Virus record (IMG/VR): IMGVR_UViG_3300030108_002354
Span: 1-27,240 of that record
Source: a virus
Direction: 5' to 3' (one strand)
Length of the DNA stretch: 27,240 bases
Below the pieces are notes generated by a model. That model made no database searches. It was not told the DNA's origin and was given only the letters and a program-made list of their open reading frames with translations. Below, in pieces: positions 2,697-17,881 of this stretch. A program made the position numbers and the translations under genes. Position 1 is the first letter of the stretch. The number at the start of each line of letters is the position of its first letter.

Positions 2697-2832
2697 CACA
2701 CACACCTTTGTTTCCACTGGAACTTTCTACTAATGTATAAAACAACCACAGACGATTCGACGGCTTATTAGTATATCTAATAATATTGTTAGATATATAT
2801 TATATTCTCCAGTGGAAATGAAGGTGTCTGTG
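2697..2832. repeat. 24-base imperfect inverted repeat between convergent genes
   Basis: Arm one (2697-2720) ends in TTTCCACTGG and arm two (2809-2832) begins with CCAGTGGAAA; the outer parts, built on CACACCTTTG and GAAGGTGTCTGTG, also pair with few mismatches. The arms enclose 88 bases that contain a second hairpin. The element spans nearly all of the space between the ends of the rightward operon (2694) and the late operon (2834). Read as RNA from either strand it could form a long stem, which suits a bidirectional terminator or a processing site. Confidence 0.6.
2772..2797. terminator. Candidate bidirectional terminator hairpin
   Basis: TATATCTAA, an eight-base loop and TTAGATATA form a perfect nine-pair stem nested inside the larger inverted repeat. 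It lies between convergent genes, where a terminator is expected for both strands. The stem is AT-only and no long T-run follows, so it is not a classical bacterial terminator. Archaeal termination depends mainly on T-rich tracts, so the call is tentative. Confidence 0.35.
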
Positions 2833-2833
2833 T

Positions 2834-3940
2834 CTATCTATCAGTAGGTTCTTTTAATATATCGATAAACTCTTGGAAAGTTACTTTTGATTGTCCTACT
2901 TGATATGTTGTTTTGATAGTTTCTTCAAAACTAATTTCGTAATTGACAATTGTTTTAATGTCATCTTTAGGTAAAGAAGGTAAATCAAATTTTATTAAAT
3001 CTCCTAAATCTAAATTGTCATGGTTAGCTAAAGACACCACATAACTTACTGTTGGTTCTTTGAAATTATTCAACACTGAATACGCTACATTCTCTAATTC
3101 ATTTTTATCACTAGAGGGATATGATAAGAAATTGCCAATCACTCCATATTTTGTCTGACTTCCAAAGTCCTCTAACTGTGCAAAAATTGTTTCATCATCT
3201 TTACTTACTACTGTAATTGCATTTATGATTCTTGTCGTGTCAATCTGAGACACAACACTTTCATCAACGATATTTTTATTTTGCTCAGACAAAGTAACTG
3301 CAGGGTATGCTAAATTGTAATCAGGGTCAGGTAAAAAGAAATCCATAACTGTACCATCACGAATCGCATATTGCCACTGTTTGATTGTATTAACTGGGTG
3401 TCGGTCATCATTTACTAAAACTTTCATTTCATTAAAACAAGCATCAATAAATTCTTTTCTAGTTTTCCATCCAAACAAATCCATGTTCTTTGTAATAAAT
3501 ATACCTGAGCCACGAGTTAATCTGGAAACGTCTATACCTTTGTAATCACACGCCCTGGCTGCTGCAAAGTACAAATCTTCACCTATGTAATCTTGTGCAT
3601 CGAATTTTACATATTGAGATTCTGCAAGAAATGTAGTGTAATCTAAAGCAGTAAATGTAGAAACTGTGTTTCCTGGATTTATATTTTTAATAATACCTAT
3701 AAATGTTTTGTCATCATTAAATATATTTTTGTCAGGTATACCGCGCCCAAAATTTACTTCAACTTTAGCTCCAAGCCTACAATGCTCCAAAGCTTCTTTA
3801 CCAGCAAATGAACAAGTAAACGAGCGTGCGCCATTAACACCATGTTGTATTTTTGCGCCCGTCGTTGTCAATAAAAATATGTCATCAATCTTTACAACTA
3901 AATAAAGAGACTCTGGAAATACTTGATTAAAAATACCCAT
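2834..3940 (-). CDS. Tail hub / baseplate protein (gp27/XkdQ-like)
   Basis: A 368-residue soluble protein made of beta-rich domains, with a first part (VKIDDIFLLTTTGAKIQHG, FTCSFAGKEALEHC) and a later SVVSQIDTTRIINAITVVSKDD stretch that resemble phage tail hub proteins of the XkdQ/gp27/late-control-D type. These form the trimeric ring below the tail tube. It is the last gene of the virion operon and follows the tape measure and a large Ig/PKD-type tail protein, the place where hub genes are usually found. Its ATG at 3940 overlaps the upstream stop as TAATG. No lysozyme or peptidase domain is fused, unlike many bacterial hubs, which fits a host without peptidoglycan. Confidence 0.6.
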   Translation of the reverse strand: MGIFNQVFPESLYLVVKIDDIFLLTTTGAKIQHGVNGARSFTCSFAGKEALEHCRLGAKVEVNFGRGIPDKNIFNDDKTFIGIIKNINPGNTVSTFTALDYTTFLAESQYVKFDAQDYIGEDLYFAAARACDYKGIDVSRLTRGSGIFITKNMDLFGWKTRKEFIDACFNEMKVLVNDDRHPVNTIKQWQYAIRDGTVMDFFLPDPDYNLAYPAVTLSEQNKNIVDESVVSQIDTTRIINAITVVSKDDETIFAQLEDFGSQTKYGVIGNFLSYPSSDKNELENVAYSVLNNFKEPTVSYVVSLANHDNLDLGDLIKFDLPSLPKDDIKTIVNYEISFEETIKTTYQVGQSKVTFQEFIDILKEPTDR

Positions 3941-13576: not shown

Positions 13577-13901
13577 TCTCGATTTCCTCTTTTGCTCTTA
13601 GCGTCACAAACCGCGCAGTGTAATAATTCCACGGCCTGTTTGCTTTTGTCTTTATACCTGCATCGTTTAAATACTTTGCTATACCGCCATATGTATAGCC
13701 ATCTTCTCTTAATTGTACCATTTTTTTACAAACCAACCACTCTACTTTTGTAGCTCCAAACCGTATAGAGCGATAAGGTCGCTTTCTAGCCGTTTTAACG
13801 GCACTGAAATTACTATCTGATGAAGAACCCATGCCGTACCATATCGTGCCTTTAAACGCCCTTTGCGGGCCTTTCATACCTATTTCTTCCTTAGGTCTCA
13901 T
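13560..13901 (-). CDS. Recombinase-type helix-turn-helix protein, no catalytic domain
   Basis: In this 113-residue protein the C-terminal half (YTYGGIAKYLNDAGIKTKAN, then RPWNYYTARFV) matches the helix-turn-helix that follows the catalytic domain in large serine recombinases ('G-x-S-x-x-x-I-A-x-x-L-N-x-x-G-I-x-T-x-x-G-x-x-W'). The N-terminal half is basic and shows no serine recombinase active site, so it is probably a DNA-binding regulator or structural accessory rather than an enzyme. It sits inside the late operon with an ATGA overlap to the giant adhesin gene and a 17-base overlap with the membrane gene. It is a candidate for a late transcription factor, but nothing links it directly to a site. 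Confidence 0.5.
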   Translation of the reverse strand: MRPKEEIGMKGPQRAFKGTIWYGMGSSSDSNFSAVKTARKRPYRSIRFGATKVEWLVCKKMVQLREDGYTYGGIAKYLNDAGIKTKANRPWNYYTARFVTLRAKEEIENGRND

Positions 13902-16900
13902 CTAGTCATTAACTCTAGTGCGTTGTCTAGTGCTGGCTTTGTAAGTCGCAAATCATCATCCCCTGCCTCATCTGCATCCAATAACTGCTGAGTGTCTAAG
14001 GTGTGAAAGAATTGTCTTATGTTAGCTCCTGTTGCCGAAACATCACAATCAATAACTGCTCCAATAACTGTAAGGTCTGCTTCTGCGTCTAACACCAAGT
14101 GTTTTACAGTACCAACTACTTCAATAGCTGCATTATCGCTTGTAGCACAGAGTGTTTTACTAGCTGATGAGTGTCCGTTAATAGTTGTATTTCCAGATAG
14201 CATTATTGAATCTGAGTTCATATTTAATTGGTCTGATGAAGAAGATACGCTAAAGTTTAGTGTTGAGTTTCTCAAATCTAAAGTTCCAGAATTGATGTCA
14301 ACAATTCTTGAGGCAATAGTATTACCATTAGCATTGTAAGTTGTACCACTGTTTACTTCTAACTCTTCTGTAATTGTATGATTGCCTGTTGCTACTGTAG
14401 TTGAAGAACCACTACATTGTATTCTTGGTATTGTTACTTCAGGAATATTTACACTTCTTGGTGAAGTCATAGAATTTAGAATTTTATTTAAATTAGCAAC
14501 ATTAGTTGCTGGGTCTGCAAATGTGACTGTTCCGCCATCCATACCGTTTAGAAATCTTAACGGTTCAGTAGTGTTAGAGCTTAATGTTGCCCCTGAACCG
14601 CAAGTAAATGTATCTCCATTCAATCTAAAAGAACTGCCTCCTCCATCTAAATCTTTTAAGGTAATAGTTCCAGTAATGTTTAAATTATAAATATCTTCAA
14701 CTCCACCATTGTAATTAATAAACTTGTTAGAACCAGACATTGTAAGCGTAGAAGTGCCTTGTGTAAATGTTCCTGAACCTGCCCAAAATGCACTTGACAA
14801 TGTTCCTGTGTTTGTATTTGAGCTACTATCTTCTAATGATGTTCCTGTGCCTTCATCACATTTATATCTAGCTACTAGACCTGTTGAACTTGCTAAAGTT
14901 CCCCCTTGAAACATATCCGTTCTTATTTGCAATTCAGTTTTAGCTACATTAAACAATCTTATTTCATCAAGCGAACCTGTAAAATAAGTAGCACTACCTT
15001 CAGAACCTAAAATTAATTGAGTTGATGAAGTGCTAATTGTGCCTGTTTCTGCCAACGTATTTTCTAATTTACCATCCACATAAATTTTCATATTTGTTTG
15101 GTCGTACGTTGCTGCAATATGATGCCATTTACCATCATTAACTGTAGAGGTTCCTGTAACTCTTTTGTTAGAACCTGTATATATTAAGAAACTAGCTTTA
15201 CCACTTACAGTTTCTATCCTGTAATAACCGCCTTGTTTAACGACAAATGTACCTTCTGCATCTGTAGTTTTGACCCAGCATTCCATAGTCATAGCAGTTG
15301 TAAAATCTAAACTGTTATCATCCGCAATTACCACTTGGTCATCTGTTCCGTCAAATGTCAAAGCACTTGTACCAATAAGACCACCACTGGTAGTAAAATC
15401 TCCTGCTACTGTAAGTGTATCATCTTGTGCATCTAATGTTCCGCCTGTAGGGATTGTTAGATTAGTGCATCCCATCACATTTGCCGTAGTTAATTTACTG
15501 CCACATATCAAAGTAGTTGCACAATTACTCCAATCTGATGTGCTGTTAGTAGTTTCATAATCATTACTGGCATTATTTATGAATACAGTTTTGTAAGTTC
15601 CTCGCATATTCATAGATATATCATCAGCACCTCCTGTAAAGATTAAATCAGCAGTTGTCTCATTATCTATATTGCCTGACCCTCCTGCTGATAAATCTGG
15701 CAATACGACAAGAGAACCATCAAAATCTACATCTCCTGTTGCAGTAAGAAGTCCACTAAACTCAGCCCTCTGTCCATTCAAATCTAAAGTATCTCCACTA
15801 CTTACTGTTACGGCATCAAACTCACAATCTCCTGTAAGTGTTACAGTTATACCACCACCACCAGTTGTAAAGTCTGGGTCATAATCAATATTTGCAATTT
15901 CGACTTTACCGCCAGATACTCCTCCTTTTCCTGAACCATCCCAATTCAAGTCTGTGCCGCCAACTGCTATCGGATAAAGCGAGCTTGCACCTTTTAATGA
16001 TGATGCGTTTGTTCCGTTGTGTGTAAATGAAAATATTGAATTATTTGTTAACGTTCCTGCGGAAGTAGTTGTTCCCATTGTTAGTGTCACTGCTCTGTCA
16101 GAAGACCTTAGTTTTGTTGATGGACTGGTGTTAAGAAAAGTCCCCTCTACTGTAATACTGGACATAATTTCACAGTGGCCGCCACCAAGATTTACTGTCA
16201 TATTATTGAATACAGGGTCAACGGTTGTTGAATTATTTTGAACATCTACACTAGTTGTGTGATTAAATTCAATAGTACCTGAGTTATGAATGTACACTCC
16301 TTGATTCAGAAACGTTCCTCCTTGTTGTAAATTACCTCTTGGTGCTGACAAAGTTCCGTTAGCTGCTATCGTAAGTGTTCCGTCAAGGTCAAGAGTGCCG
16401 TTGTTGTCCCCTAATGCTGCATTACCTCCAAATTGTGAACTAGCTATTGCAGTAGTCCCTCCGCCTGTAAATGAATTGCCTGAGCCTTCATCCATTTTCC
16501 ACTCGTGTTTTGCAGTCTGTGGATATGTATTAGAATAAAGTGAAGCTGCTTGTTCAGCACTTAACGCATAATCAAACACTTTAAGGTCTCGTAATCTACC
16601 ATCAAATTCATCTATTGTGCCTCTAATACCAATTACATCAAATGTAGGGTCAGCAACTATTGCGTTAGACGTTAAAGTTTGAGCTACACCATCTACATAA
16701 ATTGCACCGTTAGAGTCACCACTCATTGTCACTACTATGTGATGCCAGTTAGTATCTGTAATAACATTACCACAAGCTAAATCAGTAGGATAATCTCTTA
16801 ATATAATATTGCCTGCCGTTCCAATTTTTAACCAGTGTTGATTAGCGTCAGATGCTTGGCCAATTATAGTATCTTCATTACCTGTAGCATTGTCCTTCTT

Positions 16901-17881
16901 TACCCACACTGCTACTGAAGAATTATCGTGAGACAAAGTAAAAGAACTAGCTAAATCTACATGGTCACCGTTGCCATCTAAGGTTAAACATGACAAAGCC
17001 AAACCCTCTACCTTTCCTTGTGTTACTGTAAACGTTCCCGTTGTCCTAGTGTCACTACCATCATATACATCTACACTGTATTCATCAAAGTGCCAAATGT
17101 CTGTAGAATATGCAGAGTTATTTCTTTTGTAAACTCCATTATAATCTGTTCCTACATTATGATGGTCAACTATAGTAGAACCTGAGCCATCATTAGATTT
17201 CCACCAACCAGCCATATTAGCATTAGAATCATTATTAGGGTCATCTACGTTTATTTTTGCTGCAAGCTTTTTAACAAATGATTGGTCTTTAACAGCGGTG
17301 TAAATTCTTGCGTCTGCAATATATCCTTTATAATATGCACCACCATTAGATGCTTCTGAACCATTACCTCCCATTCTTAAAATGTTACTGTTAGTTAAAT
17401 CACCTACTCCTGTTGCAGTTCCAGTATCTACTGATACGCCATTTACATAAAGAACCATTGCTTTAGTACTTGAATTATAAGTTCCTGCAACGTGAATCCA
17501 AGTATCTACAAGAGCAGACGCATTATACTCAAGTCTATCTCCGTTACTTCCGTCACCTATGCTAAAATAAATATAATTATTACTGTGTCTCCAATACAAA
17601 CCATAACCTAAAGCGTTTGGATTATAGTTTATTTGTTTACCTATTATAGTAGCCCCGTGAACTGTGTCTGTCGGAGTTTCAGGTTTTATCCAAGCTGATA
17701 TTGTCATACCTCCAGTAGTTATTAAATCTACATCACCCATTGTTACAACGTTTTTCTCACTATCTGGAGAACCATCACCGCCTGAAAAAAACAAAGCACT
17801 GTCAAGATTTACATTAACGTTTGCTGCTCCAAGATTTCCTTCTATTATTCCGCCCGTGCCTTGAAACTCAAAAGTGCTCAT
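13898..17881 (-). CDS. Giant beta-helix and LamG-domain adhesin
   Basis: At 1327 residues this is the largest gene here. Three concanavalin A-like/LamG domains are visible: about 28-205 (SAWIKP ... WIHVAGTYNSSTKAMVLYVN), 295-450 (VAVWVKK ... WHHIVVTMSGDSNGAIYVDG) and 838-1000 (MECWVKT ... WHHIAATYDQTNMKIYVDGK). Each contains the typical W-x-H-(V/I)-A-x-(T/V)-Y/M ... Y-V-(N/D)-G motif, and DEGSG/DEGTG motifs flank them. Between and after them lie Asn/Thr/Gly-rich strands like a beta-helix (residues about 480-830 and 1040-1290). Such proteins bind carbohydrate, so recognition of host surface glycans is the likely role. No signal peptide is present, in line with a virion protein. It overlaps the upstream beta-helix gene as ATGA. 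Confidence 0.7.
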   Translation of the reverse strand: MSTFEFQGTGGIIEGNLGAANVNVNLDSALFFSGGDGSPDSEKNVVTMGDVDLITTGGMTISAWIKPETPTDTVHGATIIGKQINYNPNALGYGLYWRHSNNYIYFSIGDGSNGDRLEYNASALVDTWIHVAGTYNSSTKAMVLYVNGVSVDTGTATGVGDLTNSNILRMGGNGSEASNGGAYYKGYIADARIYTAVKDQSFVKKLAAKINVDDPNNDSNANMAGWWKSNDGSGSTIVDHHNVGTDYNGVYKRNNSAYSTDIWHFDEYSVDVYDGSDTRTTGTFTVTQGKVEGLALSCLTLDGNGDHVDLASSFTLSHDNSSVAVWVKKDNATGNEDTIIGQASDANQHWLKIGTAGNIILRDYPTDLACGNVITDTNWHHIVVTMSGDSNGAIYVDGVAQTLTSNAIVADPTFDVIGIRGTIDEFDGRLRDLKVFDYALSAEQAASLYSNTYPQTAKHEWKMDEGSGNSFTGGGTTAIASSQFGGNAALGDNNGTLDLDGTLTIAANGTLSAPRGNLQQGGTFLNQGVYIHNSGTIEFNHTTSVDVQNNSTTVDPVFNNMTVNLGGGHCEIMSSITVEGTFLNTSPSTKLRSSDRAVTLTMGTTTSAGTLTNNSIFSFTHNGTNASSLKGASSLYPIAVGGTDLNWDGSGKGGVSGGKVEIANIDYDPDFTTGGGGITVTLTGDCEFDAVTVSSGDTLDLNGQRAEFSGLLTATGDVDFDGSLVVLPDLSAGGSGNIDNETTADLIFTGGADDISMNMRGTYKTVFINNASNDYETTNSTSDWSNCATTLICGSKLTTANVMGCTNLTIPTGGTLDAQDDTLTVAGDFTTSGGLIGTSALTFDGTDDQVVIADDNSLDFTTAMTMECWVKTTDAEGTFVVKQGGYYRIETVSGKASFLIYTGSNKRVTGTSTVNDGKWHHIAATYDQTNMKIYVDGKLENTLAETGTISTSSTQLILGSEGSATYFTGSLDEIRLFNVAKTELQIRTDMFQGGTLASSTGLVARYKCDEGTGTSLEDSSSNTNTGTLSSAFWAGSGTFTQGTSTLTMSGSNKFINYNGGVEDIYNLNITGTITLKDLDGGGSSFRLNGDTFTCGSGATLSSNTTEPLRFLNGMDGGTVTFADPATNVANLNKILNSMTSPRSVNIPEVTIPRIQCSGSSTTVATGNHTITEELEVNSGTTYNANGNTIASRIVDINSGTLDLRNSTLNFSVSSSSDQLNMNSDSIMLSGNTTINGHSSASKTLCATSDNAAIEVVGTVKHLVLDAEADLTVIGAVIDCDVSATGANIRQFFHTLDTQQLLDADEAGDDDLRLTKPALDNALELMTR

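Follow-up and report, generated by a model that had tools for sequence, protein, structure and literature searches.

What does a large inverted repeat do between two convergent genes of a virus, and does its symmetry belong to an RNA or to the DNA itself? The repeat lies in a 27,240-base virus record, the whole of which was analysed and is here called the window. An earlier, sequence-only reading had described 24-base arms at 2697-2720 and 2809-2832 enclosing 88 bases, and these are present as claimed. An inverted-repeat search extends the arms to 28 nt (2694-2721 and 2808-2835, 86% complementary) and ranks the repeat first, and longest, of the five in the window (minimum length 16, distance of at most 300). 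The inverted repeat is real and lies far beyond chance. Judged from its sequence, it is very probably a virus-borne replication origin of the archaeal oriC1 type, with two inverted origin recognition boxes (ORBs) flanking an AT-rich unwinding stretch and a conserved motif inside.

Setting and relatives of the repeat

The repeat fills the convergent intergenic region, as had been stated, and the flanking ORFs have their stop-codon ends at 2694 and 2834. At the left edge of the putative origin ends the early-side ORF (2494-2694, + strand), encoding a zinc-ribbon-like protein of 66 aa with sub-threshold Pfam matches (DUF5817/DUF1922), whose family also adjoins the element in relatives. At the right edge ends the late-side ORF (2834-3940, - strand), which forms the downstream end of the structural module; its 368 aa product matched no Pfam or PHROG family and has relatives 45-47% identical in four viral contigs (L004-L007). 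Elsewhere in the window, positions 13898-17881 encode a 1327-aa virion protein with three Laminin_G_3 stretches, perhaps a receptor-binding structure. Accessory genes of the relatives include DNA methylases and amidoligase-like and glutamine-amidotransferase-like proteins (L115:5291-6262, L123:2469-3386, L121:1218-2126, L120:14169-15098), and Recombinase (PF07508) and TackOD1 (Thaumarchaeal output domain 1) are each matched by a single ORF of contig G008 (L116/L117).

Three of the four contigs with a relative of the 368 aa protein (those scanned) show, immediately behind that gene, an inverted repeat whose arms are almost identical. A 16-mer scan returned 66 stretches, 26 of them with both arms at the usual spacing, and a two-arm pattern applied to viral records gave 42, namely those 26 and 16 new ones, all of the same element. 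With the window these form an alignment of 43 rows, 37 of them distinct. Among the 40 stretches of the 16-mer scan without the usual arms, two with wider spacing (L019 and L022) were restored, which brings the set to 45 elements, and 38, including a partial match (L011), were dropped as chance matches or other contexts. The layout of the element is thus found in 44 viral loci besides the window; L010 and L012 are different contigs with identical sequence, so that these counts refer to loci and not to independent viruses.

When 20 viral contigs were searched with a one-ORB pattern allowing at most one mismatch, 14 held one convergent pair, 6 held one arm and none held more. Across the 43 rows, 26 elements follow one gene family in the head module and share a single orientation, and 14 lie at the convergent junction of tail and early genes, where the orientation relative to the tail gene is split seven versus seven; the remaining three are placed elsewhere (L077, L079, L080). 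The element of L022 has a third setting, near terminase-like genes. Single copy number together with free placement and free orientation suits an origin.

Arms, interior and central motif

ORBs are the binding sites of Orc1/Cdc6. As given in the available part of the Ori-Finder 2 report (PMC4164010), the common ORB motif is TCCA[CG]T[TG]GAAA[TC][GA]AAGGGGT, and both arms of the window fit it at 19 of 20 positions, with one mismatch each. The left ORB, TCCAGTGGAAACAAAGGTGT (2702-2721, - strand), is near-invariant in the 43 aligned viral loci and continues outwards into a conserved GTGTG, down to about 2697. The right ORB, TCCAGTGGAAATGAAGGTGT (2808-2827, + strand), is inverted relative to the left one, is extended by CTGTG up to about 2832 and has a tail that fits the pattern of amoA-carrying genomes described below. 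Against the reading as ORBs counts that the arms of the window end in GGTGT, where the common motif has GGGGT. Beyond the two arms, the 27-kb window holds no further ORB-like site within four mismatches.

The same two-arm pattern, scanned against the genome_contigs collection (84,980 species by its description), returned six matches, all of them archaeal. In Metallosphaera the match sits just upstream of a cdc6/orc1 gene, and for this reason we read the arms as origin recognition boxes. Four of the six loci also contain a cdc6 match, in one case a partial one at the edge of the locus, and L093 and L095 contain none; the Thermococcus match (L092), also near cdc6, is less telling because it lies inside a long ORF. 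Among 398 Thermoproteota genomes, 14 have close variants of the arm, and in 7 of these the flank that was retrieved also contains cdc6. Rfam gave no match in the window and none at the element in the six archaeal loci. Named phages gave no BLASTN match to the locus at 1e-5. With the cut-off relaxed to E 10, the locus against phages and a relative's element against plasmids gave nothing but short matches, none of which covered more than 25% of the query. The earlier suspicion that the repeat exceeds what a terminator needs and marks a special site is borne out.

The TCCA ends of the two boxes point towards each other across a gap of 85-161 bases (median 98; 45 elements). In the window the gap is occupied by an AT-rich stretch (2722-2807), presumably the duplex unwinding element, with 74-75% A+T versus 61% for the window; about 2% of 80-base windows are equally AT-rich, and across the 43 rows the A+T content between the ORBs ranges over 67-79%. 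Within it lies a virus-specific central motif, CGACGGCTTATTA (2758-2770, + strand), the only match in the window to the consensus CGRCGGSTTATTA and centred within half a base of the midpoint between the ORBs. The consensus is present between the ORBs in all 45 viral elements. In the 37 distinct interiors it stands 37-42 bp from the right ORB, at exactly 37 bp in 25 of them, and its spacing on the left side varies from 34 to 109. On the sequences compared, CGRCGGSTTATTA is a new, virus-specific central motif that is absent from the host origins examined. As a separate observation, the outer ORB variants of L077, L079, L080 and L089 look as if left and right had been swapped around the central motif, which hints at past inversion or exchange within the origin.

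With these features in place, host Orc1/Cdc6 would bind both ORBs with opposite polarity and, once bound, would load MCM helicases in face-to-face orientation onto the AT-rich stretch, after which the host replisome would copy the viral genome. Origin activity, Orc1 binding, unwinding, helicase loading and the identity of the host are what we infer here, and this marine archaeal virus probably uses the element to recruit the replication machinery of its host. An Orc1/Cdc6 gene (TIGR02928, E 0.01) was found in none of 21 viral records, which are contigs and possibly incomplete. Such a gene near the element, the usual arrangement at a chromosomal oriC, was accordingly not found in these 21 records, and it would be unneeded if the host initiator is used. 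Pfam was applied to 38 of the 47 listed ORFs of G008, a 34-kb record, and identified no replication protein among them. GC skew shows no switch at the element beyond what the gene strand explains, and this counts against an origin.

Competing explanations for the symmetry

The symmetry could instead serve a structured RNA, a terminator or an RNA-processing site made from the + strand, an explanation to which we give very little credence. RNA folding of both strands, proposed as a check in the sequence-only reading, gave a stable structure of -50.9 kcal/mol for the + strand versus -24.7 +/- 3.5 for shuffles (z -7.5; none of 200 as good) and -46.2 for the - strand (z -5.6). A fold stronger than that of shuffles is expected on both strands of any long inverted repeat. 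The small AT-rich hairpin predicted inside the inter-ORB stretch (2772-2797) also folds, with 9 pairs on the - strand and 12, including G-U, on the + strand. CACAGAC occurs at 2747-2753 as reported; the alternative pairing of the right arm proposed from it does not hold up, as only the window and L074 carry CACAGAC in the 43-row alignment (L017 has CACAGAT, by eye) and the pairing is therefore not conserved. The arms themselves vary without compensating changes, the very outcome that the sequence-only reading had named as refuting its proposal. In the 11 distinct arm pairs of the 43 loci, all differences fall within positions 12-15 or at position 21 of the 24, and left and right arm match each other at positions 12, 13, 14 and 21 in just 6, 2, 5 and 6 pairs, respectively; of the 20 remaining positions, 19 are constant and one shows a single change. 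The published ORB motif is itself degenerate, [TC][GA], at positions 12 and 13, and the arms are near-invariant between viruses with tail proteins about 46% identical. Each arm separately matches the ORB motif, and the symmetry therefore comes from two protein-binding sites placed in inverted orientation on DNA; the independent change of the arms is, as far as the alignment goes, the behaviour of two separately read protein sites and unlike that of a stem. One observation leans towards RNA: counting G-U, 10, 8 and 9 of the 11 arm pairs are pairable at positions 12-14 on the + strand, compared with 7, 5 and 7 on the - strand, a surplus explained by transitions at those sites. The position of the element at the ends of gene runs would also fit an RNA, whereas its evenly split orientation at the convergent junction, the lack of an Rfam match and the match of the arms to chromosomal origins would not. 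Overall, the inverted repeat is best read as DNA and is probably not an RNA hairpin.

Two further explanations accept a role of the DNA. Host Orc1/Cdc6 could bind the ORBs without starting replication, the element being a decoy that titrates the initiator, or a partition or regulatory site; the sequence reveals boxes and not firing, and a multicopy viral genome could, by inference, titrate Orc1. We consider this unlikely, as the full layout of inverted ORBs, AT-rich stretch and fixed central motif is kept in every one of the 45 elements, whereas a decoy needs neither the spacing nor the central motif and would benefit from more copies. A site for site-specific recombination or attachment, or a small mobile repeat with inverted ends, seems highly improbable. 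It would agree with the differing position and orientation of the element among related viruses and with outer arm variants that look exchanged against the core in the four loci L077, L079, L080 and L089. Arguing against it, all 20 contigs have at most one pair, the arms are conserved far above the interior, unlike those of a recently moved repeat, and they match ORBs; the Recombinase domain match in one ORF of G008 has no tie to the element. The processing site, small structured RNA and attachment site that the sequence-only reading had offered are not favoured by the evidence.

Host and known replication systems

If the element is an origin served by a host initiator, its boxes could carry a clue to the host. 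We sampled 398 Thermoproteota genomes, 72 of them with amoA. The tail pattern GAAANRNAGGTGTSTGDGT, which fits the right arm of the window, was found in 40 of the 72 amoA-carrying genomes versus none of the 326 others (Fisher p ~2e-35, a descriptive value since the pattern was written after 28 loci of ammonia-oxidising archaea (AOA) had been seen), and a reversed-pattern control gave one match (G415). Of the 72 amoA-carrying genomes 28 were tested, and all 28 have orc1/cdc6. Like the viral element, most AOA origins contain an inverted inner ORB pair, here beside cdc6, with the same GGTGTGTG tail as the virus; next to the left ORB they also have a T-tract, a feature of most viral elements. Unlike the virus, they have further ORBs, mostly wider spacing and a different conserved centre, and in place of the viral TCC their inner ORBs mostly have TAG or TTG, which means that the virus has not simply copied any host box seen. 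The AOA centre TTACAAACTAAA, 12 bases that share TACAAAC with the Sulfolobus ucm oligo, has no match within four mismatches in the window at 2691-2840. A centre resembling AAAAATAATTAATTACAAACTAAACTA recurs between the inner ORBs in many chromosomal origins of AOA (e.g., L148 at about 1344-1373, L131 and L137); it holds TACAAAC, which also occurs in the ucm oligo as given in the available part of PMC12141716, and may be a ucm-like motif outside Sulfolobales.

The extended ORB tail suggests an AOA host, within a sample of one phylum, Thermoproteota. Marine group II (MGII, Thermoplasmatota) may be an alternative host. The window encodes a portal protein (PF04860), and its major capsid protein has only archaeal relatives among named phage records (nine records), at 29-33% identity in Haloarcula HVTV/HCTV-type viruses and 24% in one Methanofastidiosa-assigned virus. 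In a capsid tree of archaeal tailed viruses, viruses of marine Thaumarchaeota and MGII stand next to HVTV-1, according to the portion of that report available (PMC8651126). A capsid protein search for an AOA provirus hit 1 of the 398 Thermoproteota genomes, G233, which does not carry amoA, so the search does not help the host call. The hit itself (L157, G233:C3:13923-14996) is a capsid relative 35% identical, possibly in a provirus.

Within a 130-bp region of Sulfolobus islandicus, the origin is active only if both inverted ORBs and a central ucm of 11 bp are present, and ORB-bound Orc1 recruits MCM to the stretch between the two inverted ORBs (PMC12141716, in the part available). As far as this partial description goes, the viral element resembles the oriC1 minimal origin (ORB3-DUE-ORB2 with a central ucm) in its two inverted ORBs over about 130 bp, the AT-rich stretch between them and a motif midway. 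It differs in its central motif, CGRCGGSTTATTA in place of the ucm oligo, in being viral, in not lying beside an orc1 gene and in its GGTGT rather than GGGGT tail. A ucm-like role of the central motif is a guess by analogy. We tentatively raise the possibility, somewhat doubtful in our own view, that CGRCGGSTTATTA binds a virus-specific or virus-selected factor in the role of the Sulfolobus ucm-binding protein; the viral origin would then fire outside the cell-cycle control of the host, a takeover through one DNA site with no viral initiator of the Orc1 kind.

Other archaeal viruses offer partial parallels. In the haloarchaeal pleolipovirus HHPV4, ORBs were predicted by Ori-Finder 2 near the presumed origin (PMC5867852, partial text), so ORBs in an archaeal virus have a precedent; paired layout, conservation and central motif are described here for the viral element, and HHPV4 is compared by its partial description. 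Thermococcales viruses, in the available part of PMC12934983, are likewise without an Orc1/Cdc6 gene but also without classical ORBs, and have their own MCM with a DNA-binding extension, which would be a different strategy. An Orc1/Cdc6 of their own is encoded by some integrated elements of Thaumarchaeota (PMC6563490, as excerpted). The open-licence literature searched, as far as its texts were available, contained no description of a thaumarchaeal tailed virus with an ORB-pair origin. The kind of origin is already known; what is new is that a virus carries it, with a central motif of its own and with no gene for an initiator found.

If the origin reading is true, archaeal tailed viruses of a group that turns up across many public viromes replicate from a 140-bp element that copies the origin plan of the host, and the ORB tail would provide a sequence-based clue to the hosts of uncultivated viral contigs. 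The element would also be a minimal natural origin of the AOA type, where genetics is scarce. In the available part of their report, the authors of the Sulfolobus ucm study ask whether other archaeal lineages have analogous origin factors (PMC12141716). The viral elements would amount to a natural experiment on the central motif, in which 37 distinct viral sequences reveal the bases that are kept.
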